NCBI GenBank assembly: GCA_028821605.1
Contig: JAPPFM010000002.1
Coordinates: 186,001-250,000, forward strand
DNA length: 64,000 nt
Reading direction: 5' to 3'
From: Candidatus Poribacteria bacterium
GTDB taxonomy: Bacteria; Poribacteria; WGA-4E; WGA-3G
Shown one piece after another: positions 8,532 through 62,998 of this stretch. Positions within the stretch are counted from its first letter, which is position 1; each line of letters begins with the position of its first letter. The position numbers were made by a program, and so were the translations under genes. A model generated the notes under the pieces. That model searched no databases. It saw nothing but the letters and a program-made list of their open reading frames with translations, and was not told where the DNA came from.

Positions 8532-9497
8532 GTGCCAAAACTCATAATGATGCCGCCACAGAACGCGGAGTCTCACGAATGGGCTGAACGCCTTCACAGC
8601 GAATTGCCTACATATACCGTCGTCTTGCCAAAAACAGATGAAGAAGTGGTTGAACATTTACCTGATGCAGATGCAGTCTACGGTTGGGTGTCGCCAGAAC
8701 AACTGCCGTTGGCGAAAAACTTAAAATGGTTACAAAATCCTGCCGCAGGTCCCTTCCCCGGCTACTATTATCTAGCATTGATTGAGCATCCGGTTGTTGT
8801 CTGTAACCCACGTGGTATCTACAATGACCATATCGCACAGCATATTATGATGTTCGTGCTTGCGCTTTCACGTGGATTACCCTATTATATGGACGCTCAA
8901 CGTGAAGGGGTCTGGGATAAAGATGCACGCAAAGATGGATACATTGACCTCGCTCAGGCAACGGCTTTGGTTGTCGGTGTTGGCGGTATTGGACATGAAA
9001 CCGCACGACTCTGTAATGAATTCGGGATGAAAGTGATTGGCGTTGATCCGCGGTGGGAGTATGAGGTGGATTTTGTGGAAAAACACGAACCCGATGAATT
9101 GGACACGCTCCTTCCACTCGCTGACTTTGTAATAACCACAACACCACACACACCTGAAACAGAGGGAATGTGGCACAAAGACCGTTTTGCTCTGATGAAA
9201 AACACCGCTTACTTCATCAATATCGGACGTGGGAAGACGACAAAACTTGCCGATCTTATTGCAGCACTTGAGCAAGACATTATTGCCGGATGCGGCTTGG
9301 ATGTATTTGAAATTGAACCCTTGCCTGCCGAGAGTCTACTCTGGCAGTTGCCCAATGTGTTAATAACGCCACATATTGCTGTCAAAGATGCGGAGAACAT
9401 TGAGACCCGACGGTTTGAACTCTTATTGGAAAACGCGCGTCGGTTCGCGGAAGGTGAACCGTTGCTGAATGTTGTCAATAAGGCAGCATGGTACTAA
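8532..9497 (+). CDS. D-2-hydroxyacid dehydrogenase (NAD-binding)
   Basis: The product is 321 residues from GTG at 8532, chosen because the longer frame from 8454 runs through the promoter. The family beta strand VPKLIMMPP begins at this codon, and AGGGAG lies 13 bases before it. The NAD-binding fold has VVGVGGIGHETA. The catalytic residues of the family are recognisable: Arg in INIGRGKTT, Glu in DVFEIEPLP and His in ITPHIAV. Such enzymes reduce 2-keto acids to D-2-hydroxy acids (glyoxylate/hydroxypyruvate, phosphoglycerate and related). The substrate cannot be told from sequence. It is followed by the PhyH-HEAT gene after 13 bases, probably as an operon. Confidence 0.88.
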   Translation: MPKLIMMPPQNAESHEWAERLHSELPTYTVVLPKTDEEVVEHLPDADAVYGWVSPEQLPLAKNLKWLQNPAAGPFPGYYYLALIEHPVVVCNPRGIYNDHIAQHIMMFVLALSRGLPYYMDAQREGVWDKDARKDGYIDLAQATALVVGVGGIGHETARLCNEFGMKVIGVDPRWEYEVDFVEKHEPDELDTLLPLADFVITTTPHTPETEGMWHKDRFALMKNTAYFINIGRGKTTKLADLIAALEQDIIAGCGLDVFEIEPLPAESLLWQLPNVLITPHIAVKDAENIETRRFELLLENARRFAEGEPLLNVVNKAAWY

Positions 9498-9510
9498 AAA
9501 AAGAGGCGAT

Positions 9511-11406
9511 ATGACAACAGTGAAACAGAATCTTTTAAACGATGAACAGATTCGCCATTTTATTGTAAACGGATATGTTAACGTCACTGCTGACCTACCG
9601 ACACACGTCCACGAAACTATCTACGACAAAACGGATGAACTCTTCGCCGGTGCAACGGATTTCCGAGGCGATGGGCAACACAATCCGCTGAATAATATTC
9701 TGCCGTTGGTGCCAGAACTTCAGTTTGTTTTGGAGTCGCCAGAGGTGCGCGGCGCACTTAACAGTATTTTGGGAAACGGATATGTCATGCATCCCCATCG
9801 GCACTGCCACCCTAACTTTTTAGGAAGCACACCGAGCGGAAAAGAGAACGGCGAAGAGCGGTTGATGATGCCGCTTCACAAAGATGGACACGCCGGTGGC
9901 AAACGACCGCGCCACCGAACCCCACGTTGGGCAATTCTTTTCTATTATCCCCAACCCTGTCTCGCTGAGCAGGGACCGACCTGTATCATTCCGGGAACAC
10001 AATACATCCGAGAATTTATGCTGGCTGGTGAACGCCAACGTCACGAGGTCCATGCAGAAGGTGGAAACGGGACGCGACTGCTCTCGGAGGATTTTCTGAA
10101 TCGCAATCTTGTTCCGATGTCCGGTGAACTCGGCACGGTGTGGATTATGCACTTTGATATGGTGCATTCATTCCTTCAAAACTATGTCTCTCTGAATCGC
10201 TACGGCATGAAGTTTGTTTTTATGCGCACCGAGCAACCGACGGCACCTTCGTGGGACAGCGAGTCTCCTATCTGGCAACCTCCTGAAGTCAACCATGTTC
10301 CTTACGATGCCGAGGTCCTCTGGACCTATATATGGAATTGGATGTACGGAAAATCGGATCTATATAAAACAGACCGTCCGAATGCCGCGATGGATATAGA
10401 CGCAGCAGTTGCAGCACTGAAAACAGACAACACAACTGCCCGTATGGAAGCGGCTAACACTTTAGGCTTCATGAGAGAAAGTGCTGCTAATGCTGTTCCA
10501 GCACTCGTTGATGTGCTGGAGGATGATTATGAACCACTGCGACGGAACGCTATCTATGCGCTTGGTGCAATCGGGGAACCGGCTGTTGGGCCGCTCATCG
10601 ACGCGCTCGCTGCGGAGAAAGAGGCGTTTGATATGGAGCCGATTCTCCATATCTGTGATGCTGCACACGGACTTGCTGCGATTGGTGCATCGGCTGTACC
10701 TGCGCTCATAACCGCGTTGGAAGACGAACGCGAAAACGTCCGTGCTTCTGCTGTGTACGTCTTAGGTGAGATAGGTCTGGTCGCAGCAGAGGCAGTTGAT
10801 GGACTTATTGCGTTGCTAACGGATGAATCGGAAGAGGTTCGTCGGCATGCAACTTCAGCGTTAGGTATGATTAAGGAACCGGTATCGAAAACCGTTCCAG
10901 CATTAGTGCGGGTTTTGGAAGATCGTGAAGACACAGATTTAGCGTTTTTTGCGGCGCAGGCTTTAACACGTATTGGACCAGATGCAACAGAGGCTGTTCC
11001 AGCATTGCAGGAAGCACTGGTGAGCGAGTCTGCGTATGTACGTGGATTCTCTTCAGAGGCGTTGAGCCGAATTGGTACTGCTGAAGCGTTGCAGGCACTC
11101 GTGCCGTTCCTGCGAACCGCGCGGTGGTTCAATTACGTTAAGAAGAATGTGCCAGCTTTCAGTATCGCGTTGAAGGATACAACGCCCGCACCGAGTGACG
11201 CAGATTCTCTCACAAAACTGATTCAGGAGTGGGCAGCGGAAAAAGATGTGCCTTTATCAGAGACCGAAGAAATCATCCAAGATTCCGATACGCAATTCCA
11301 GGTAACCTTCAGTGGTGGTAGGCGGGTAACTGCACGCATTGAGGGCGACACCCTAAACCTTTATCACAAACGACGTGTGGAGGCTGGGTTTAAGACATAT
11401 CGTTAG
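9511..11406 (+). CDS. PhyH-type dioxygenase fused to HEAT repeats
   Basis: The product is 631 residues from ATG at 9511. Residues 1-290 are a phytanoyl-CoA dioxygenase-like domain: HxD iron ligands His123 and Asp125 (PLHKDGHAG), the strand ILFYYPQPC, the PGTQ turn at 161, and a distal histidine in WIMHFDMVHS (His214 or His219). Residues of about 300-560 are alpha-helical HEAT/PBS-lyase repeats of about 30-40 residues, seen as recurring patterns of AVPALVDVLED, LRRNAIYALGAIG and VRASAVYVLGEIG. A short beta-rich tail follows. PhyH proteins hydroxylate small molecules using Fe(II) and 2-oxoglutarate. The repeats probably bind a partner. This fusion is unusual for the family. Confidence 0.85.
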   Translation: MTTVKQNLLNDEQIRHFIVNGYVNVTADLPTHVHETIYDKTDELFAGATDFRGDGQHNPLNNILPLVPELQFVLESPEVRGALNSILGNGYVMHPHRHCHPNFLGSTPSGKENGEERLMMPLHKDGHAGGKRPRHRTPRWAILFYYPQPCLAEQGPTCIIPGTQYIREFMLAGERQRHEVHAEGGNGTRLLSEDFLNRNLVPMSGELGTVWIMHFDMVHSFLQNYVSLNRYGMKFVFMRTEQPTAPSWDSESPIWQPPEVNHVPYDAEVLWTYIWNWMYGKSDLYKTDRPNAAMDIDAAVAALKTDNTTARMEAANTLGFMRESAANAVPALVDVLEDDYEPLRRNAIYALGAIGEPAVGPLIDALAAEKEAFDMEPILHICDAAHGLAAIGASAVPALITALEDERENVRASAVYVLGEIGLVAAEAVDGLIALLTDESEEVRRHATSALGMIKEPVSKTVPALVRVLEDREDTDLAFFAAQALTRIGPDATEAVPALQEALVSESAYVRGFSSEALSRIGTAEALQALVPFLRTARWFNYVKKNVPAFSIALKDTTPAPSDADSLTKLIQEWAAEKDVPLSETEEIIQDSDTQFQVTFSGGRRVTARIEGDTLNLYHKRRVEAGFKTYR

Positions 11407-22728: not shown

Positions 22729-23559
22729 ATGAATTTCAGCGTTATTTCTGCTGGCAAGTTTTGGCTTGTGAGCTTAGTTGTTGTATGTTTCAGTTTCTTT
22801 TTTGCTGGTATTTTGTTTGTCTCCCCCACGTTTGCCGAGATTGACCCTGATACCGTTGTCGGGGTGTGGCTTTTTGATGAAGGCAAAGGAAATGTCGCAA
22901 CCGATGCTTCAGAAAATGGTTTAGATGGCGAATTTGAAGGCAAACCTAAATGGGTTGAGGGTAAGTTTGGGATGGCACTTGAATTCGATGGGAAATCCGC
23001 TTACGTTCAGATCCCAGCGCATGAAAACCCTACTGAAGCAATAACGGTCTCAGCGTGGGCGAAGAGTGCATCCGAACTTTGGAACCAACCCGGTTGGATA
23101 GTTGAAAAACGGAACGCCTATATCATCCATCCGAACAGCGGGACAAAAAATATCGCGTGGCCGGTTTGCAATGGCGGCTGCTGGAATAAACCCGGCGGTT
23201 GGAATGACGGTAATGTTGGTACCGATGATATTACCGAATGGCACATGTACACCACCACTTACAATAGCAAGACGGGTGAGTGGTACATCTATATTGATGC
23301 CGAAGAAGCGAGCGCGTTGGATTTGGCTAAAAATCCGATTGATCTTGATACTGGTCCCGCTAATATTGGATTTGATGACTGCTGCGGGGGCGCACGCTTT
23401 GGCGCAGGTGCTGTTGACGAGGTCTTAATTCTCAGTGTCGCTTTGGAACAGGAGGACATTGAAAAACTGTATAAAAACGGACTTTATGCTGAAGTCTTGG
23501 CGGTTGAACCAGCTGATAAAATGACAACCACCTGGGCGGATGTGAAAGTCAAGTATTAG
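22729..23559 (+). CDS. Secreted LamG-domain protein 1
   Basis: This 276-residue protein has a signal peptide (hydrophobic core about 12-31, cleavage near Ala36-Glu). It begins with VVGVWLFDEGKGNVATD, the usual first strand of LamG/concanavalin A-like domains, followed by the jelly-roll strands. Cysteine pairs at CNGGC and CCGG could form disulfides. It has about 75% similarity to the next gene. Function is probably carbohydrate or matrix binding. The C-terminal tail (VEPADKMTTTWADVKVKY) is shared with two other proteins here. Confidence 0.88.
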   Translation: MNFSVISAGKFWLVSLVVVCFSFFFAGILFVSPTFAEIDPDTVVGVWLFDEGKGNVATDASENGLDGEFEGKPKWVEGKFGMALEFDGKSAYVQIPAHENPTEAITVSAWAKSASELWNQPGWIVEKRNAYIIHPNSGTKNIAWPVCNGGCWNKPGGWNDGNVGTDDITEWHMYTTTYNSKTGEWYIYIDAEEASALDLAKNPIDLDTGPANIGFDDCCGGARFGAGAVDEVLILSVALEQEDIEKLYKNGLYAEVLAVEPADKMTTTWADVKVKY

Positions 23560-23781: not shown

Positions 23782-24597
23782 ATGAATTTCAGCTCTTTTT
23801 TCTTTGGAAGACTTGCGCTTTTGAGTGTCGTGCTTACAGGTCTCTTTGCCATTAGTATTCTGATCAATTCCACCGCTTCAGCCGAGATTGACCCTGATAC
23901 TATTGTCGGGATGTGGCTTTTTGATGCGGGTAAAGGAAATGTCGCAACCGATGAGACCGGAAATGGACTGGATGGTGAATTTGAAGGTAAGCCGAAATGG
24001 GTTGATGGTCAATTTGGGAAGGGACTTGAACTTGATGGTGCTGGCGCACATATTGTTATTCCAGCCCATGAGAATCCAACAAAAGCGATCACCGTCTCTA
24101 TTTGGGCGAAAAGTCATACAGATACCTGGAACCAGCACGGCTTCCTTTTTGAAAAACGGAACGCCTATATCATCCATCCGAACGCAGGCACAAAAAATGT
24201 TTCCTGGCCCATTTGCAACGGGGGCTGTTGGAATAAGCCCGGGGGCTGGCGCGATGGGGAAATCGGTCCCAAAGATATTACCCAGTGGCACATGTACACG
24301 ACTACTTATGATAGCAAGACCGGTGAGTGGTACATCTATATTGATGGAAAAGAAGAGAGCTCACTGGATCTGACTAAAAATCCGATTGATTTGGATACCG
24401 GTCCGGTCTACATCGGTAATGATACTTGTTGTGCTGGACGATTCGGCGACGTTACTGTTGATGAGGCTGTAATCTTTGATGTCGCTTTGGAGCAAAGGGA
24501 CATTGAGTCGATGTTAGACGGTATGCATGCAGCTTTAGGGGTTGATCCTGCTGACAAGATGACAACCACTTGGGCAGAGGTGAAGGTCAAGTATTAG
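23782..24597 (+). CDS. Secreted LamG-domain protein 2
   Basis: This 271-residue tandem paralogue of the gene at 22729 has a signal peptide (cleavage near residue 34). The LamG jelly-roll opens with IVGMWLFDAGKGNVATD, and the paired cysteines (CNGGC, CCAG) and the tail VDPADKMTTTWAEVKVKY are retained. AAAGGAGG lies 8 bases before the start. The MITE between the two genes suggests it inserted after duplication or took part in it. It is predicted to be exported and to bind carbohydrate; the ligand is unknown. Confidence 0.88.
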   Translation: MNFSSFFFGRLALLSVVLTGLFAISILINSTASAEIDPDTIVGMWLFDAGKGNVATDETGNGLDGEFEGKPKWVDGQFGKGLELDGAGAHIVIPAHENPTKAITVSIWAKSHTDTWNQHGFLFEKRNAYIIHPNAGTKNVSWPICNGGCWNKPGGWRDGEIGPKDITQWHMYTTTYDSKTGEWYIYIDGKEESSLDLTKNPIDLDTGPVYIGNDTCCAGRFGDVTVDEAVIFDVALEQRDIESMLDGMHAALGVDPADKMTTTWAEVKVKY

Positions 24598-35220: not shown

Positions 35221-36000
35221 ATGCTTTCAAAGCAACAATTAACGCAATTTGAAGAAGAAGGTTATCTACTCCTTTCCGGATTGATTCCACAAAAGACTGT
35301 TATAAAGGCAGAGACAGCGATGTGGCAGATGATGGGTATGGAGTCAGATAATCCAGATTCGTGGGGGCACTTCAAGCGTCCAGGGCTTGCTGGATTTTAC
35401 ATGGAACAACTATCAAATGGGAATCGCATAGAACTTTTTGGTGTTACGAATCCAGATGTGTTGGCGTGTTGTACCTCTGATTACCTCACTGTCCTCAAAC
35501 AACTTGCCTCCCGATATCCAGAAATCCCACACTGCGAAGATCCACGCCCGGATGGCATCTGGGCACTCAACCAATTCCCCGTTGCAGCTGAATGGAAAAG
35601 TCCTTCGCCACACTTAGATGGTGATTTTCGGGATTTTCGGTTGGATCCTGGGACATTTCGGGCAACCAGTTTGACCTACCTCACCGATGCGAATTCGCAC
35701 GGTGGAACGACGGTAATATGGCCCGAAGGGCCGCGGCGCATTCGTAAATTCCGTAAGAAAAATCCAGAGTTCTCCAACCATGTCCGTGATGTCCGCGCCC
35801 TGTTTCCAGAGATGGATTTGGGCGAACCGATGGAAGTCGTTGCGAAGCAGGGGGATGTGCTATTTTTTCACCACTTGTTACCGCATTCTGGGACAATAAA
35901 TGTTGGAGATTCCGCGCGCTTCGCGATCCGATATATGTGTTTGTGCGTCGCATGCCGCAAATGGGAGAAGAAAGGCGAGTGGAATATCTGGATGCCATAA
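35221..36000 (+). CDS. PhyH-type dioxygenase
   Basis: This 259-residue phytanoyl-CoA dioxygenase-family protein has iron ligands His131-Leu-Asp133 (PSPHLDGDF) and a distal His in VLFFHHLLPHSG (about residue 225), with a following Arg (SARFAIRYMC) for 2-oxoglutarate. Residues LTYLTDANSHGGTTVIWPEG match the central strand and turn. It should hydroxylate an unknown small molecule. It is close to a secreted protein and a second PhyH gene in the same direction. The start is supplied by the repeat A end. Confidence 0.86.
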   Translation: MLSKQQLTQFEEEGYLLLSGLIPQKTVIKAETAMWQMMGMESDNPDSWGHFKRPGLAGFYMEQLSNGNRIELFGVTNPDVLACCTSDYLTVLKQLASRYPEIPHCEDPRPDGIWALNQFPVAAEWKSPSPHLDGDFRDFRLDPGTFRATSLTYLTDANSHGGTTVIWPEGPRRIRKFRKKNPEFSNHVRDVRALFPEMDLGEPMEVVAKQGDVLFFHHLLPHSGTINVGDSARFAIRYMCLCVACRKWEKKGEWNIWMP

Positions 36001-36023
36001 GAAAACTGAATGGAGAAATAAAA

Positions 36024-36776
36024 ATGATAAATCACACGAAACAGACCGCCTTTTTCAAGTATTTCCTATTGACGCTCACTGTTTTTTTCAACCTTGTTAT
36101 CGTAAAAACCGCAATTTCCCAAGAAGTCTTCGTACAGACCGGATTTGAGGAATTCGCTACCGGCAACCCACCGAAAGATTGGGAGGTAATCGGTGGCGAC
36201 TTTGAAGTTTCTGGCGACACCGTCAAAACGGATAAAAAAGCACTCGCTATTTTGGGCGGTGGAGACGGAGATGGACTCGGTGTCCCTATAGAAACCGATA
36301 ATCCTATTATTTCGGTCGAATTTTGGGTGTATATTGAGGGCGGTGGGAGGTCTTTCAATCTCAAAGTCGCTACTGCTGATAACATTGGCGAAAATAACGG
36401 ATGCACCTACATCAACTGGGATGCTGGTATTGTTAGGCTTTACGACGGCGGTGCGTGGCAACTTATTGGAGATTTTGAAACCGATACATGGAAATACGTC
36501 CGTATCATCGCTGATGTTGGTAAAAGCGAATTTGATTTCTACGTTGGAGACGACAGGGACGATGCATTGGGTGCTAAGCCGGAAAAGGGACTCCCTTTTC
36601 GGAACGCTGCCCTCGCTCCCGTTGCCAAATGGTTCGCTTTCTATACGTGGGGAATAACTGCCCCCGGTTACGTTGATGATTTACTGGTTTATGAAGGGGC
36701 AGATGCCCTTGATCTCGCCGTTGACCCGAACGCGAAACTCACGACACTCTGGGGGCAAATTAAGCACGGATTGTAG
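36024..36776 (+). CDS. Secreted beta-sandwich protein with shared C-terminal tail
   Basis: The product is 250 residues from ATG at 36024. It has a signal peptide (hydrophobic part 9-28, cleavage after ISQ), then a LamG-like jelly-roll (VFVQTGFEEFATGNPPKDW, VEFWVYIEGGGRSFNLKVA, WKYVRIIADVGKSEFDFYV). The end (VDPNAKLTTLWGQIKHGL) matches the C-terminal tail of the two LamG proteins at 22729 and 23782. It is predicted to be exported and to bind carbohydrate or matrix. It follows the PhyH gene by 23 bases. Confidence 0.75.
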   Translation: MINHTKQTAFFKYFLLTLTVFFNLVIVKTAISQEVFVQTGFEEFATGNPPKDWEVIGGDFEVSGDTVKTDKKALAILGGGDGDGLGVPIETDNPIISVEFWVYIEGGGRSFNLKVATADNIGENNGCTYINWDAGIVRLYDGGAWQLIGDFETDTWKYVRIIADVGKSEFDFYVGDDRDDALGAKPEKGLPFRNAALAPVAKWFAFYTWGITAPGYVDDLLVYEGADALDLAVDPNAKLTTLWGQIKHGL

Positions 36777-36818
36777 GAGAGGTCCCCTTAAGTTTTGGAT
36801 ATATCTTGGAGGTGAGAA

Positions 36819-37637
36819 GTGAAAAACAACGAAACGATTTGCCTGACACCAGCACAACGGCTACATTTCGACATCTACGGTTTTGTGTTATTAGAGAATG
36901 TTCTAAACAACGATGAAATTCAACGCATGAAGGGTGCGCTCTACAGGATGAACGCCGATGAGGATCTGGATGCCAAACACGTCTATGCTCGTGGGCGGAG
37001 CGAACACCATGTGCTTTTCGGCAATCTCGTTGAGTATGATCCAGCGTTACTGGAATACGCCGCGCATCCAAAACTCGTGCCGTTGGTTGAAGAGGTGGTG
37101 GGAGGTGCAGTACGCCTTGAGGAAACCGAAGCGATCATCAATAGTCGTAACCCTGAGACAGAATTAGGCGAACTCCACAAACGCCGCTATAACCCAACCG
37201 GTTTCCATCGCGGAACGCAACACGGATGGGGCACATACATGGAGCAAAACAAGTTCCACTGCATCTTTGTGAAGACGCTCGCATACCTTACCGATGTTGG
37301 TCCCGATGATGGTGGAACGTGCGTCATACCGGGCAGCCACCGCTTAACGTGGAATCATAACGAGATGATTGAAGCGGCACTCTCTGATGACAAACTCATC
37401 TACCAAGTCGAAGCCACCGCCGGTTCCGTGCTGCTTTTTGCTGAAGCGTTGATTCACAGCACCACTGCCATCCGCAGCGACAAGGAGCGCGTTATCCTTA
37501 TCTCCGGCTACACACCACCGATGGTGCGAGAATGGCCCGGCAACGAAGTCAGTCCTGAATTTATTGAGACGTTACCAGAAGACATCCGTCCGCTCATTTC
37601 AGGAAGTGACAGTTGGCACTGGAAACGACGGTATTGA
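36819..37637 (+). CDS. PhyH-type protein with HxG instead of HxD
   Basis: The product is 272 residues from GTG at 36819 (GGAGGTGA before it). The fold is that of phytanoyl-CoA dioxygenase, with VKTLAYLTDVGPDDGG and PGSHRLTW. The proximal iron motif is His130-Arg-Gly132 (TGFHRGTQHG), so the Asp ligand is missing. The distal His213 (EALIHSTT) and Arg at about 223 are present. An HxG/HxA site is the hallmark of non-haem iron halogenases such as SyrB2 and WelO5, where halide fills the vacant place. It is also found in PhyH proteins of unknown activity. Chemistry is undecided. Confidence 0.8.
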   Translation: MKNNETICLTPAQRLHFDIYGFVLLENVLNNDEIQRMKGALYRMNADEDLDAKHVYARGRSEHHVLFGNLVEYDPALLEYAAHPKLVPLVEEVVGGAVRLEETEAIINSRNPETELGELHKRRYNPTGFHRGTQHGWGTYMEQNKFHCIFVKTLAYLTDVGPDDGGTCVIPGSHRLTWNHNEMIEAALSDDKLIYQVEATAGSVLLFAEALIHSTTAIRSDKERVILISGYTPPMVREWPGNEVSPEFIETLPEDIRPLISGSDSWHWKRRY

Positions 37638-37645
37638 TTTACCGT

Positions 37646-39160
37646 TTATGCTCCTGAAGTCCGCGGCATCCACAACGGCTCCTTTCCCATCTCTGCGAAT
37701 AATAACTTCATAATCAAATCTGCCTTCAGGTTCGCATGCTCAGTTGAATTCCACAGATTCTTGATTTCTCCAGGATCTTCTTTCAGGTCAAACAACTCCC
37801 CGTAGTCTCGGTTGTAATAGACAGTCAGTTTATAACGATCGTCAACGTAGGTTTTGACGTGTACAGTTGTCGGTTCGTGACGGTTTTCAACGATGATATG
37901 GTCGCGTGCTTGTTCTGCTTGTCCTGACCAAACCGGCATCTGATCTACACCCGTCATCGGACGTGGGATGTCGATACCGGTGGCACTCAGGAACGTGGGT
38001 GCTAAATCTACCAACGTCTGTAATGCTTCTGATTGTTTCCCTGCAGGCACAACGCCGGGATACCGGACGATAAATGGCACTCGGATGACATCCTCGTAGT
38101 GGAACGCGCCTTTTGCTACGAGACCGTGCTGTCCGTAAAAATGCCCGTGATCGGATGTGAACACAACCAGTGTATTATCTGCTAGCCCCAGTTCGTCGAG
38201 TTTTGCCAAGATTTTCCCGATGTATTTATCCATCAGGCTCACCATACCGTAGTAGACAGCGATGTCTTTGGCGAGTTCATCCCGATCGCGTAGATGGGAG
38301 TTGAAGCCGTGTACACCCTTTCCACTTTCACGCCAAGCCGAGAAATCTGGCTTTTGCTGCTGCGTTAGCTGGAAATGCGGCGGATTGTTGTCATGTTCTC
38401 CTTCCGTCACAGAAGGCACCGTCAATTTGGTCGGATCATACATCGTATCCCACGGTTCCGGTACTAAATATTTCGGATGCGGATCGAAGAAACTTGCCCA
38501 GAGGAAGAAGTTCTCGTCGTTCTGTTGGTATGCCTCCATGAGTGCGTTGGTACGTTCCGCAATCCATGTATCGTAATGATATTCTTCTGGGATGGGCCAC
38601 TTTCGGTATTGCCCGCGGGCGTTCCCTGTCGGCGGCGCGAAATAATCTCGCCAATTGGTGCAACCGTTCTCTTCCATCCAGATAGCGTAGTGCTGTCCGA
38701 CGTGTGCTTCGTCGGCATGATTGCGCGCCAATTCAACGTGTTCAAACCCGTAAAAGGGTTCGTTAAAACTCCGCCAAAAGTCCAAGTCTTGGAGGATCGG
38801 GTAGGATTCCAGAGATGGGAATTCCTCGGTGCCGTGAAGCGGTTGAAAATGCGCTTTTCCGACGAGAGCGGTACGATAGTCTGCGTCTATGAAGTCTTCA
38901 CCGACGGTGTGTTCATCTTCGGAGAGTTTTGTGCCGAGGGACCAGGCACCGTGTTGACTCGGATACTTCCCCGTGATAATGGATGCGCGCGTCGGCGTGC
39001 AGGTAGGATTCGGGCAGTAGGATCTGTTGAAAAGTGTCCCTTGTTGTGCCAGTGTGTCTAAATGTGGTGTCTGTATTTCTGGATTGAGGCAGCCCAAGGT
39101 GTTCCAATGCTGCTGATCGCTGGTGATGAGTAAGATATTAGGTCTGGTTTCAGTTCCCAT
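37646..39160 (-). CDS. Sulfatase (Cys-type)
   Basis: This 504-residue sulfatase/alkaline-phosphatase-superfamily enzyme has the modification motif Cys54-Thr-Pro-Thr-Arg58 (PTCTPTRASIITG), in which the Cys becomes formylglycine. SDQQH at 14-18 and VFTSDHGHFYGQHG supply metal ligands. No signal peptide is evident, so it may be cytoplasmic or rely on another export path. It hydrolyses sulfate esters, probably from marine polysaccharides. The start is divergent from the next sulfatase. Confidence 0.9.
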   Translation of the reverse strand: MGTETRPNILLITSDQQHWNTLGCLNPEIQTPHLDTLAQQGTLFNRSYCPNPTCTPTRASIITGKYPSQHGAWSLGTKLSEDEHTVGEDFIDADYRTALVGKAHFQPLHGTEEFPSLESYPILQDLDFWRSFNEPFYGFEHVELARNHADEAHVGQHYAIWMEENGCTNWRDYFAPPTGNARGQYRKWPIPEEYHYDTWIAERTNALMEAYQQNDENFFLWASFFDPHPKYLVPEPWDTMYDPTKLTVPSVTEGEHDNNPPHFQLTQQQKPDFSAWRESGKGVHGFNSHLRDRDELAKDIAVYYGMVSLMDKYIGKILAKLDELGLADNTLVVFTSDHGHFYGQHGLVAKGAFHYEDVIRVPFIVRYPGVVPAGKQSEALQTLVDLAPTFLSATGIDIPRPMTGVDQMPVWSGQAEQARDHIIVENRHEPTTVHVKTYVDDRYKLTVYYNRDYGELFDLKEDPGEIKNLWNSTEHANLKADLIMKLLFAEMGKEPLWMPRTSGA

Positions 39161-39365: not shown

Positions 39366-40778
39366 ATGCCCTTAAAAGAACGCCCTAATCTCCTCATCAT
39401 TATGTCCGACGAACACGCACCGATGTTCAGCGGTCCCTACGGACATCCCTTTGTTCAAACGCCGCACATGGACAGACTCGCTGAAGACGGTGCCACTTTC
39501 GCAAACGCTTACTGCAATTCGCCCCTCTGTACGCCGTCTCGGATGTCGTTTATGACAGGTCGGTATATCCACAAAATCGGGGCGTGGGACAACGCTGCAC
39601 CCTTGCGTCCAGATGCTGTCACATGGGCGCACCTCTTACGAGCAGAAGGTTACGATGTTGTACTCTCTGGGAAACAGCATTTCGGGGGGATGGATCAGTT
39701 CCACGGATTTCGTGCGCAACTCGCCCGTGATCTACACGCAGAACGACAGCACGGACTTACGGACTGGGATAACGGTACACCACCAGCACCCCGTCCATGG
39801 CAAGGTCTTGCACAGGCACGTCCGGGAACAACTGAGGAAATTGAAGTCGATGACTTCGCGGAGGTAGAAGCACTGGCGTATCTCCGAGATCCGGCACGAC
39901 AGGAACAGCCGTGGGCACTCAACGTTTCGTTTATCGCACCGCATTTTCCACTCATCGTGCCCCAACGATTTTGGGACCTCTACCCACTTGACGAGATTGA
40001 TCTCCCTGACATTCCGGAGGGACACCTCGAAAACCAGCATCCTGTCTATCAACGGATGCGGCGTATGTTCGGTTGTGTTGATTTTCCAGAAGAACTTGTC
40101 CGTCGTGGGAGGGCAGGCTATTATGGATTGATTACCTACCTTGACGAAAAGATTGGCAACTTGCTTCAGACGCTTGAGGAGACCGGACAGTCGGAGAATA
40201 CGGTTGTCATTTACACCAGTGACCACGGTGAGATGAACGGTGAGCACGGCATGTGGCGCAAGTCGAATTTCTATGAGGCATCCGCTCGCGTCCCGCTACA
40301 GATTATGTTCCCTGACGAAATGTGTGCCGGTAGACAGGTTGATGAAGTCGTTTCGCTTGTGGATTTAACGGCAACGCTTGTTGATATTGCAGGCGCGCAG
40401 CCTGTCTGTCAACTTGATGGGGATAGTCTGTTGCCTTTGATGCAGCGCACCAGAAGGGACTGGAAAGATTTCGCGTTCTCCGAATACCTCGCGCATGGGG
40501 TTGAACGACCGATGGCGATGGTGCGGAAGGGACGGTATAAATACAACTATAGTCTCGGTGATCCACCGGAACTTTACGACATCGCCGAGGATCCGGGTGA
40601 ATTTCGGAATCTCGCCAATGACGAGGCATATCAAGCGATTTGCCAAGAACTTGGGGCACAACTATTGGCAGAGTGGGATCCAATTGAGATCGAAAAGCAG
40701 GTTCGGACGAGTCAAAAAGCCCGTATCCTGATAGATCAAGTCACTGAGGGACAATGGCGAAAGCCGCCTAATAAGTGA
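39366..40778 (+). CDS. Sulfatase (Cys-type)
   Basis: This 470-residue sulfatase has the motif Cys55-Thr-Pro-Ser-Arg59 (PLCTPSRMSFMTG), the classical sequence for formylglycine formation. SDEHA at 14-18 and YTSDHGEMNGEHG complete the metal site. No signal peptide is visible. The fold and motifs are typical of the superfamily. Together with two neighbours it suggests use of sulfated glycans. It is convergent with the 5'-nucleotidase, 128 bases away, where a CTTCCAA repeat lies. Confidence 0.9.
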   Translation: MPLKERPNLLIIMSDEHAPMFSGPYGHPFVQTPHMDRLAEDGATFANAYCNSPLCTPSRMSFMTGRYIHKIGAWDNAAPLRPDAVTWAHLLRAEGYDVVLSGKQHFGGMDQFHGFRAQLARDLHAERQHGLTDWDNGTPPAPRPWQGLAQARPGTTEEIEVDDFAEVEALAYLRDPARQEQPWALNVSFIAPHFPLIVPQRFWDLYPLDEIDLPDIPEGHLENQHPVYQRMRRMFGCVDFPEELVRRGRAGYYGLITYLDEKIGNLLQTLEETGQSENTVVIYTSDHGEMNGEHGMWRKSNFYEASARVPLQIMFPDEMCAGRQVDEVVSLVDLTATLVDIAGAQPVCQLDGDSLLPLMQRTRRDWKDFAFSEYLAHGVERPMAMVRKGRYKYNYSLGDPPELYDIAEDPGEFRNLANDEAYQAICQELGAQLLAEWDPIEIEKQVRTSQKARILIDQVTEGQWRKPPNK

Positions 40779-43820: not shown

Positions 43821-44071
43821 CCAGATTTGTGATATTTTTCGGTTTACCATTACAATCAACAATGGACAGGAGTATACCAAATTTTCCAAAAGAGATCAGT
43901 AGAAAAACTGTTATCTCCTTTGTGGATTTTTCTTGAGGACACCGTATTCTCTTCGCCGATTTTTTCACTTCTATATGCAAATCTGGAGGAGAATACGTTC
44001 TCGTTTTTATCTTGAGGGAGTCGTTGAAATATGCTATGCTGTGGACATCACAAATTGAGGGGAATATTTTG

Positions 44072-45493
44072 ATGTCTCGTTCAATAAATAAGCGACCGAA
44101 TCTCGTTTATGTTTTCGCAGATCAACTCCGTTACCAGTCGTGTGGCTATGCTGGGGATACCCGCGCGCACACGCCAAATATTGATCGTTTTGCTACGGAG
44201 GGTGTGAATTTCTGTAACGCTGTCTCTGGAAGTCCGATGTGCGCGCCCTATCGCGCCTCGCTTTTCACTGGCAAATACGCCAGTAGCACCGGCATGGCGA
44301 TTAATGAACTCCGCATGAATCCGAATCATGACTGCTTCGGGCATGTTTTGCATCGCAACGGTTACCAGACAAGTTACATCGGAAAATGGCATCTGTGGGC
44401 GAATCAATTGGGGAGGCACAATGATCCCAAGAATTCCTACATTCCGCCGGGACAACATCGCCTCGGTTTCGATGGAGAGTGGTCGGCATACAATTTTCAT
44501 CACTTGTATTTTGACGCGTATTATCACAAGGATTCGCCTGAAAAGATCGTGCTTCCCGGATATGAACCGGACGGGCAGACCGATTTGGCAATTGATTACC
44601 TGAAACGGGCATCAACAGGAGACGACCCTTTCGCGCTTTTCCTCTCAATCGGGACACCGCACGATCCGTGGACCCAAGACAACGTTCCAACCGATGGTTA
44701 TGAGACGTTCCGAGACGTTGAGTTCCGGCTGCCACCAAACTATCGCGATGAGAACGATCCTTACGGCGATACGTGGGCAACTATGTCCCCCGCAGAACGT
44801 ACCGCGCTGCCTGAGTGGATGCGCGTCTATTATGCGATGACTGCGAATCTGGATCGGAATATTGGGCGGTTGCTGCAAGCCGTTGATGACCTTGGATTGC
44901 GCGACGATACAATTTTTGTTTTCACCTCCGATCACGGTGAGATGTTTGGTGCGCAGGGTCGTCGTGCGAAGAACATCTTTTATGAGGAAGCGGTGCGCGT
45001 TCCATTTCTGGTCCAGTGGCAAGGACAAGTTCCGGCTGGGCACGTTTCAGATGCTTGCTTGAACACGCCGGACATCATGCCGACGCTGCTGGCGATGATG
45101 GAGCTGCCAATTCCGAAAGATGTTGAGGGTGTAGATTTGAGTAACACTGCCTTTAATCAACCCACTGATGAACCGGATGCAGCGTTTATGCAGGGAATGG
45201 GATGTACTGCCAAATGGGAGGACGGTTATGAGTGGCGGGCACTGCGTACAAAGCAACATACATACGCTGTCCATCGTCCGGCCCGAAGTGAGAAACTTTT
45301 CGATAATATTGCTGACCCGTTCCAAACTCGTAGTCTGATTGATGGTCCGGAATCGACCGAACTCCGAGAACGGTTCCGAACGATGTTGCAGCAACGCATG
45401 GATGTGCTTAACGATACCTTTGAGACGTGTACGTGGTGTCGTGATAATTGGACCGAAGATCGGATTATCCTCCGTACAGCGACGTTAACCTAA
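44072..45493 (+). CDS. Sulfatase (Cys-type, CAPYR)
   Basis: The product is 473 residues from ATG at 44072, with TTGAGGGG 10 bases before it. The frame extends to 44012, but that part lacks a site. The modification motif is Cys57-Ala-Pro-Tyr-Arg61 (PMCAPYRASLFTG), a variant with Tyr for Ser at the fourth place. ADQLR at 16-20 and VFTSDHGEMFGAQG supply metal ligands. No export signal is evident. It is followed 49 bases later by a D-threonine aldolase-like gene. Confidence 0.88.
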   Translation: MSRSINKRPNLVYVFADQLRYQSCGYAGDTRAHTPNIDRFATEGVNFCNAVSGSPMCAPYRASLFTGKYASSTGMAINELRMNPNHDCFGHVLHRNGYQTSYIGKWHLWANQLGRHNDPKNSYIPPGQHRLGFDGEWSAYNFHHLYFDAYYHKDSPEKIVLPGYEPDGQTDLAIDYLKRASTGDDPFALFLSIGTPHDPWTQDNVPTDGYETFRDVEFRLPPNYRDENDPYGDTWATMSPAERTALPEWMRVYYAMTANLDRNIGRLLQAVDDLGLRDDTIFVFTSDHGEMFGAQGRRAKNIFYEEAVRVPFLVQWQGQVPAGHVSDACLNTPDIMPTLLAMMELPIPKDVEGVDLSNTAFNQPTDEPDAAFMQGMGCTAKWEDGYEWRALRTKQHTYAVHRPARSEKLFDNIADPFQTRSLIDGPESTELRERFRTMLQQRMDVLNDTFETCTWCRDNWTEDRIILRTATLT

Positions 45494-59949: not shown

Positions 59950-60813
59950 TTAGTTTGAGAGGACACCTTGTTCTTCAAGCCATACCTTCAGTGGAACGTC
60001 TGCATCCTTGGGTGAAAAATGCCCGTTTGCGTTGGTACCACCACCGAGCAATTGCTGTCGAATCGGGTCATTTCGCTCAAACATCTCTTGGGGAATCGTC
60101 ATGTTGTCTTTGCTCCGTAGCCATCGGTAACCGTATCCGTAGAAGAGTCCTTTGCGCGTGATGTCTGAATCGTTTTCGCTACGGGCGTGCCATATACGTC
60201 GGTCAAAGAAAACGGCATCACCGGGTTTACAGCAGACTGGTGTTGCGCCTTCGGGGAGCGAACCGTCTTCTGGCTTCTCAAGTTTGTCCCAGAGATGGCT
60301 TCCCGGAACCACATAGAAATTCCCGCGTCCCGTTTCAGAGCAGTCGGATAGCCAATAGACGACTTTTATTGAGAGACGTGGTCGTGGCGAACTTTCGATT
60401 TCCATGTTGACGCGTCCACTATCCTGATGCCATCCGAGTGGTGTGGGTTTGCCACGAACCTCATCAGGACGAGGTGGTGTGATGATGAAATGGCTGTGGT
60501 AGGAATAGATGTTCCATCCCAGAATGCCCCAGACCTTCGGGAATGTTTTATGCCAGTCCAGGATATTCACGAAAATTTGATCAGTGCCGAGGAAGTTTGG
60601 GTAGAAAAAGTTGCTGTGCTCGGTCATCTGATTTTTGGTATACGGATCGTAACCAGCGTCGAGATGGTCTTGGTAGATGCGGTCTACCCGTGTTTCAAGA
60701 CGTTCAACGAGATCTAATGGGAGCGCGTTTTCAACGGTGAAATATCCGTCCTCATTCAGCTTTTGGTGCTGTTCGTCAGTAATCTGATGTTGTAGATGGC
60801 GTTCGTCAAGCAT
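59950..60813 (-). CDS. PhyH-type dioxygenase
   Basis: This 287-residue phytanoyl-CoA dioxygenase-like protein has iron ligands His129-Gln-Asp131 (LGWHQDSGR) and the distal His in FFDRRIWHARSEND (about 215). VVYWLSDCSETGRGNFYVVPGSH is the core strand and turn. It follows the Gfo/Idh/MocA gene by 46 bases and is probably co-transcribed with it, so the pair may act on a sugar-like or small organic molecule. The substrate is unknown. Confidence 0.88.
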   Translation of the reverse strand: MLDERHLQHQITDEQHQKLNEDGYFTVENALPLDLVERLETRVDRIYQDHLDAGYDPYTKNQMTEHSNFFYPNFLGTDQIFVNILDWHKTFPKVWGILGWNIYSYHSHFIITPPRPDEVRGKPTPLGWHQDSGRVNMEIESSPRPRLSIKVVYWLSDCSETGRGNFYVVPGSHLWDKLEKPEDGSLPEGATPVCCKPGDAVFFDRRIWHARSENDSDITRKGLFYGYGYRWLRSKDNMTIPQEMFERNDPIRQQLLGGGTNANGHFSPKDADVPLKVWLEEQGVLSN

Positions 60814-62173: not shown

Positions 62174-62998
62174 ATGCCAGTTTTTGACGCAGAAGCCTTA
62201 GAATTTTGGGAAGAGAACGGTTACGTCGTTGTGCCGGAGGCGGTACCACTTGAGAATTGCCGCGCCGCTGAACAAGCCGTCTGGGATTTTCTTGAAATGG
62301 ATCGCGACGATCCAGATAGTTGGTATCCTGACCCACCGCGCAAGAGCATTATGGTGGAGATTTATCAGCATCAGGCGTTGTGGGACAACCGCCAATACCC
62401 TCGCATCCATCAGGCGTTTTCAGAGATTTGGGAGAGCGAGAAACTTTGGGTTAGTTTTGATCGTGCGAGCATGAATCCACCTGAACGTCCGGACTGGGCG
62501 TTCACCGGTCCTTATTTGCATTGGGATATGTCGTTGGATGATATGCCGGTGCGTTTGAAAGTGCAAGGTGTTTTGTATCTGGCGGATACGCCGGGTAATC
62601 AGGGCGCGTTCACTTGTATTCCGGGCTTCCATCGGAAGTTGGAGAAATGGTTGGGGGACTTACCTGATGATGCGAACCCGCGGGAAGTTGTGCGAGATTA
62701 CCAAGCAGAGGCGGTACCGGTTGCTGGGAAAGCGGGGGATCTGGTTATCTGGCATAGTGCGTTGCCACACGGCAGTAGTCCGAACTCTGCCGAGCGTCCT
62801 CGGATGGCGCAGTACATTACGATGTCACCGGCACCAAATGATGGCAAGGATATAAACGAAAGCCGTGTTAAAGGATGGCGCGAACGGTTAACTGGTCTCG
62901 GAAAAGAGGCGAGAGAAAAGGAGCATTACCAGGGTGAAACGGCGGAATTGACCCCTTTAGGAAAGAAACTCCTTGGTCTTGAACCGTGGGTTGCGTGA
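62174..62998 (+). CDS. PhyH-type dioxygenase
   Basis: This 274-residue phytanoyl-CoA dioxygenase-like protein has iron ligands His116-Trp-Asp118 (YLHWDMSLDD) and the distal His in IWHSALPHGSSPNS with a following Arg (about 213). The strand GVLYLADTPGNQGAFTCIPGFH is typical. AAGGAGAG lies 7 bases before the ATG. It is the fifth member of the family in the window. The substrate is unknown. Confidence 0.88.
   Translation: MPVFDAEALEFWEENGYVVVPEAVPLENCRAAEQAVWDFLEMDRDDPDSWYPDPPRKSIMVEIYQHQALWDNRQYPRIHQAFSEIWESEKLWVSFDRASMNPPERPDWAFTGPYLHWDMSLDDMPVRLKVQGVLYLADTPGNQGAFTCIPGFHRKLEKWLGDLPDDANPREVVRDYQAEAVPVAGKAGDLVIWHSALPHGSSPNSAERPRMAQYITMSPAPNDGKDINESRVKGWRERLTGLGKEAREKEHYQGETAELTPLGKKLLGLEPWVA

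Follow-up and report, generated by a model that had tools for sequence, protein, structure and literature searches.

Has a PhyH protein that lost the acid ligand of its iron site become a halogenase, or has the site been completed in another way? The protein concerned is encoded in a window of 64,000 nucleotides (the whole stretch of DNA analysed here, whose numbering is used below) from a Candidatus Poribacteria genome, a bacterium of the sponge-symbiont type. It matches the PhyH family PF05721 well (64.8 bits for a cut-off of 22) but lacks the HxD/E...H iron triad of this family, since it reads His130-Arg131-Gly132 at the place of the acid. A preliminary description, made from the letters alone, contrasted this HRG motif with the HxD of the four other PhyH proteins of the window and proposed a halogenase or, alternatively, a catalytically altered or inactive subfamily. 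The contrast itself is borne out: a profile search of the window's own genome finds five PF05721 matches inside the window, the other four of which read HKD, HLD, HQD and HWD (Table 1).

Table 1. Position of the PhyH gene, of its metal-site residues and of the other PhyH genes in the window
Feature	Position	Strand	Remarks
PhyH-family Fe(II)/2-oxoglutarate oxygenase ORF	36819..37637	+	GTG start, 272 aa, PF05721
GGAGG ribosome-binding site, predicted from sequence	36808..36812	+	6 bases 5' of GTG
His130, putative proximal iron ligand	37206..37208	+	CAT codon; invariant, 64/64 rows
Gly132, position of the acid ligand in HxD proteins	37212..37214	+	GGA codon; invariant, 64/64 rows
Glu209, candidate substitute for the lost acid, distal His minus 4	37443..37445	+	invariant, 64/64 rows
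His213, putative distal iron ligand	37455..37457	+	invariant, 64/64 rows
Arg224, likely 2-oxoglutarate-binding Arg, His213 plus 11	37488..37490	+	invariant, 64/64 rows
HKD PhyH	9469-11406		PF05721 profile search and alignment
HLD PhyH, ordinary HxD kind, syntenic neighbour	35221..36000	+	PF05721; in 39/63 loci
HQD PhyH	59950-60813		PF05721 profile search and alignment
HWD PhyH	62174-62998		PF05721 profile search and alignment

PhyH is reported to be the most abundant domain family in Poribacteria (PMC3909097), the same group of organisms as here, and this expansion is evident in the 6.0 Mb genome, which contains 143 PF05721 matches; metal-site subtypes do not appear in the consulted passages of that report. 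After removal of 20 matches shorter than 150 residues, 123 readable proteins remained, 21 of which have no Asp at the HxD place (G in 12, A in 4, S in 3 and H in 2). The loss of this Asp is thus unusual but not unique. The column of Arg224 is occupied by Arg in 119 of the 123 paralogues. Three open frames each contain a pair of PhyH matches and encode tandem two-domain PhyH proteins of 576, 590 and 507 aa (G000:C10:131601-133046, G000:C34:24693-26114 and G000:C40:84091-85104).

Whether HxG is constant in close homologues had been put forward as a check, and it is: in an alignment of the protein with 63 relatives (58-94% identity; row L064 was retained despite a stop codon), H130, G132, K152, E209, H213 and R224 are each invariant in 64/64 rows. 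The constancy of H130 and G132 argues that HRG is neither chance nor a sequencing slip. A genome search, counted by hand, finds a match at E <1e-100 in 67 of the 84 genomes of the phylum sample, namely 36/38 in the genus, 20/20 in the rest of the family, 11/14 in the rest of the order and 0/12 outside the order, so that the gene is nearly ubiquitous within the order (67/72 genomes). In these sequences, Gly132 is thus a fixed trait of a widely retained gene. Relatives with 81-94% identity belong to MAGs that bear Candidatus Poribacteria titles, and those with 58-75% to MAGs whose titles name Gemmatimonadota, Latescibacterota, Armatimonadota (Chthonomonadales) and Bacillota. The orthologues assigned to other phyla (L061, L062, L065, L070 and L071, 58-75% identity) suggest inter-phylum transfer or mislabelled bins. 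A search for viral relatives found none.

The invariant Glu209 lies four residues before the distal His, a position (hereafter minus 4) that is occupied by R, S, F and H in the four HxD PhyH proteins of the window. Across the own genome, D or E is found at minus 4 in 17/21 PhyH proteins without the HxD acid versus 7/102 with it. Loci L065 (Chthonomonadales title) and L062 (Latescibacterota title) led to two further genomes, which gave 6/6 versus 1/41 and 13/16 versus 1/50 when HxE was counted together with HxD and duplicates were removed; here, we dropped all rows below 150 residues as well as three duplicates and two rows that could not be read, and the rows derive from overlapping stretches and are therefore not the same set as the 50 and 68 matches listed. 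Over the three genomes, a minus-4 acid is thus present in 36/43 proteins that lack the HxD/E acid versus 9/193 that have it, and Glu alone in 32/43 versus 4/193. Because MAFFT split several motifs (the LHGG of HygX, discussed below, was printed as HxD, and HCARED and HASGQD likewise), the two residues after the His were read contiguously; the HLD protein was also misplaced in a small alignment. Reading the columns as the aligner set them changes the counts for the own genome to 14/18 versus 10/105 but leaves the conclusion as it is. The seven exceptions among the 43 acid-less proteins are four with Asp at minus 5, one HQH, one HSH and one HGG with Pro at minus 4. Conversely, nine HxD/E proteins carry both acids, including members of the same lineage reading HAD or HGD. 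Our survey of the open literature, mostly of search listings, found no description of a minus-4 acid in PhyH proteins.

Some of these variants deserve mention in their own right. In one acid-less subclade (G000:C56:108152-108775, L318, L326 and L336), an Asp at minus 5 (FMDG..H) takes the place of the minus-4 Glu; this subclade is sister to a protein that has the Glu at minus 4. In the HQH, HSH and HMH proteins (G000:C41:158733-159311, G000:C59:320660-321208 and L322 (+)), a third His stands in place of the acid, and they possibly contain a three-His iron site.

The evolutionary history of the two positions is complicated by kinship among the proteins. A Fisher test over the three genomes, which ignores this kinship, gives p 5e-27 for the association between the minus-4 acid and the loss of the HxD/E acid. 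The association is, however, phylogenetically clustered in one large lineage, so that the acid-less proteins do not count as independent cases. A 151-row tree shows about 7 changes of the HxD acid and about 11 of the minus-4 acid, and a paired test yields 4-7 independent pairs, too few events for significance (median p 1); label counts on the first tree relied on the aligner's own columns and on a HygX label assigned by hand. A focused tree of 83 rows was composed of all acid-less or minus-4-acid rows of the 151-row set, 10 chosen ordinary rows and, from the two other genomes, 17 of their 22 distinct acid-less proteins; support is weak at the deep forks of this tree, and the chosen outgroup does not form one group. 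In one large set of this tree, position 132 is G, A, S, P or H and has twice become D again (HAD and HGD), while the Glu at minus 4 was retained, so the HxD Asp and the minus-4 Glu are not mutually exclusive. Likewise, among 15 diverse members of the lineage (24-58% identity), nine columns, that of E209 among them, are invariant in 15/15, whereas position 132 is variable. A fully supported four-row subclade combines HAS with Glu at minus 4 and two HRD rows with Ser or Thr; its fourth row is an exception, having HGG and Pro. Free switching between D and G had been named as an observation that would count against a meaningful HxG site: it occurs in the wider lineage (G, A, S, P and H, with returns to D), but the orthologues are constant. 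The pattern fits a position 132 that may have lost its role once E209 took over.

The nearest solved structure, matched by sequence, is HygX, the hygromycin B oxygenase (PDB 4XC9, 4XCA, 4XCB and 4ZPI), which is the top PDB match with the single sequence (E 3.8e-12), with an orthologue profile (1.3e-15) and with a lineage profile (4.7e-28). The lineage profile ranks HygX (101.6 bits) above the ectoine hydroxylase EctD (67.2 bits, E 1.6e-17) and above the halogenases SyrB2 (51.0 bits, 1.3e-12) and CytC3 (43.2 bits, 3.3e-10). HygX resembles the window protein in having an HxG motif (LHGG at the acid site) and a Glu at minus 4, although the two share only about 25-29% identity and HygX, linked to orthoester formation on sugars in a review (PMC8234114), is an actinomycete antibiotic enzyme whereas the window gene is nearly ubiquitous in its order and no cluster of this kind was observed. 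In the focused tree, HygX sits on a long branch (1.96) and belongs to none of the starred sets that comprise up to half of the rows, which leaves its placement unsure. An AlphaFold2 model built from 33 close orthologues was poor (mean pLDDT 57, pTM 0.60) and its fold matches, among them HygX at 25-26% identity, all had Z <8. According to its title, entry 4XCA contains HygX with nickel and 2-oxoglutarate, and such sites therefore bind metal and cosubstrate. The sequence comparisons suggest that the window protein belongs to a carboxylate-poor and little-noticed PhyH lineage that would include HygX.

A second precedent comes from outside the family. Human AspH has an HXG motif and two His, is reported to be an active hydroxylase and has not been seen to halogenate (PMC13168262, PMC10947486). 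The same reports describe a water molecule that occupies the site of the missing acid, is stabilised by Asp721 and is thought to hinder halide binding; His725 being the distal ligand, this acid is also at distal His minus 4. The likeness to the window protein, HXG plus a minus-4 acid, is a match by spacing: AspH carries Asp rather than Glu there, its substrates are EGF-like domains and its family, PF05118, is not among the families of the window protein at E 0.001.

We thus consider it probable that the window gene encodes a PhyH-superfamily Fe(II)/2-oxoglutarate oxygenase that is active but does not halogenate, and in which Glu209 would replace the lost carboxylate, either as a ligand or through a water molecule. 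As judged from conservation, His130 and His213 would bind the iron and Arg224 the 2-oxoglutarate, while Glu209, on the strand of the distal His, would serve the site vacated at Gly132. It could do so as a direct iron ligand or by holding an iron-bound water as Asp721 does in AspH; direct ligation is conceivable, but we would put it forward only tentatively. A ferryl intermediate would then drive the hydroxylation, or the oxidative cyclisation or cleavage, of a small polar metabolite, perhaps sugar-like, a guess that we draw from HygX. An Asp elsewhere that completes the triad had been named as evidence against the halogenase proposal; the alignments point to a candidate acid, though a Glu, E209, that could complete the site.

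The most serious alternative, which we nevertheless regard as unlikely, is a two-His oxygenase with water in the vacant site, in which E209 would bind substrate or be structural rather than substitute for the acid. The nine HxD/E proteins with both acids lend it some weight, because there the minus-4 acid may serve otherwise, for example in substrate binding, and so do the acid-less PhyH proteins that manage without a minus-4 acid. However, an E209 unconnected with the vacant site sits poorly with a minus-4 acid that is so much more frequent where the HxD/E acid is lost, and with the four-row subclade in which Glu accompanies HAS and Ser or Thr accompanies HRD, its HGG and Pro row excepted.

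That the protein is an Fe/2-oxoglutarate halogenase, which would bind halide in the vacated acid site and transfer it to a substrate radical, is very improbable. The motif invites this reading: halogenases have HxA or HxG in place of HxD/E, HxG is described as a halogenase motif (PMC13244439) and is constant in the orthologues, SyrB2 and CytC3 belong to the same superfamily and also lack the acid (HQA), TIGR01762, the NCBIfam chlorinating-enzyme model, gives a weak local match, and seawater is rich in halide, as the preliminary description pointed out. Several observations argue against it: (i), the place of Glu209 is taken by Ser in both SyrB2 and CytC3 (PDB 2FCT, 3GJA), and a carboxylate at minus 4, beside the vacant site, should repel halide; this comparison comprises these two structures, and a neutral minus-4 Ser as a halogenase mark is our proposal from them rather than an accepted definition. 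(ii), the TIGR01762 match reaches 13.9 bits for a cut-off of 226.3, and none of the 31 matches in the own genome (best 87 bits) is above the cut-off. (iii), the nearest solved structure, HygX, is not a halogenase, and both HygX and EctD are closer to the lineage than SyrB2 and CytC3 are. (iv), the gene is found throughout its order, unlike a sporadic natural-product halogenase, and no carrier protein or biosynthetic cluster was found among the genes scanned. Moreover, removal of the acid alone makes no halogenase, since the D414A and D414G variants of P4H are reported to have neither hydroxylation nor halogenation activity (PMC2767507) and, in a BesD-related hydroxylase, a single change is reported to be insufficient for efficient halogenation (PMC13244439). 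Of the two proposals of the preliminary description, the altered subfamily thus stands, with its acid missing and this absence fixed in orthologues, while halogenation has lost ground to E209, the kinship with HygX, the TIGR01762 scores and the distribution of the gene. Least probable of all is a catalytically dead PhyH protein retained for binding or regulation, a reading prompted by the lost canonical ligand and by the inactivity of P4H D414G and D414A (PMC2767507) but opposed by HygX, which also has an HxG motif (LHGG) and was solved with metal and cosubstrate, and made unlikely by the constancy, in 64/64 rows, of both putative His ligands, of E209 and of the predicted 2-oxoglutarate Arg.

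These results bear on genome mining, where HXG/A serves to mark halogenases (PMC11186838); a recent halogenase pipeline notes that such searches can yield false positives (PMC12871659). In the bacteria examined here, many PhyH proteins would be caught in this way. If the minus-4 acid does replace the lost ligand, most false halogenase leads of this kind could be discarded by inspecting a single residue. The lineage would then also supply natural proteins for studying how a ferryl enzyme manages without the canonical acid and why it does not halogenate. If Glu209 is a direct ligand, the minus-4 acid would provide a simple sequence test to tell acid-less oxygenases from true halogenases.

The gene neighbourhood was compared with the window ORFs at 63 loci, with flanks of at most 5 kb; some contigs end early and the neighbour counts are therefore lower bounds. 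Upstream neighbours are a DUF4175 protein (at least 38/63), PPK2 (at least 39/63), the HxD PhyH protein (at least 39/63) and a LamG-like ORF at 35937 (at least 46/63), this last count including any homologue of one or the other of two adjacent copies and 'LamG-like' being a descriptive name only, as the ORF has no Pfam match; a sulfatase lies downstream on the opposite strand in at least 44/63. Distant genomes show different neighbours: creatininase; MurJ with 6-phosphogluconate dehydrogenase; HAD with a dihydroorotate-dehydrogenase-like protein. The genes scanned at the loci included no constant partner, no carrier protein and no natural-product cluster. Within the window, the ORF at 35937-36776 overlaps the 3' end of the HLD PhyH gene, and its true start is probably a later ATG. 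Sulfatases at 37646-39160 and 39366-40778 adjoin PhyH genes, and the product of 44012-45493 is sulfatase-like by eye only. Finally, 22729-23559 and 23782-24597 encode adjacent secreted LamG-type (Laminin_G_3) proteins, an apparent tandem duplication.
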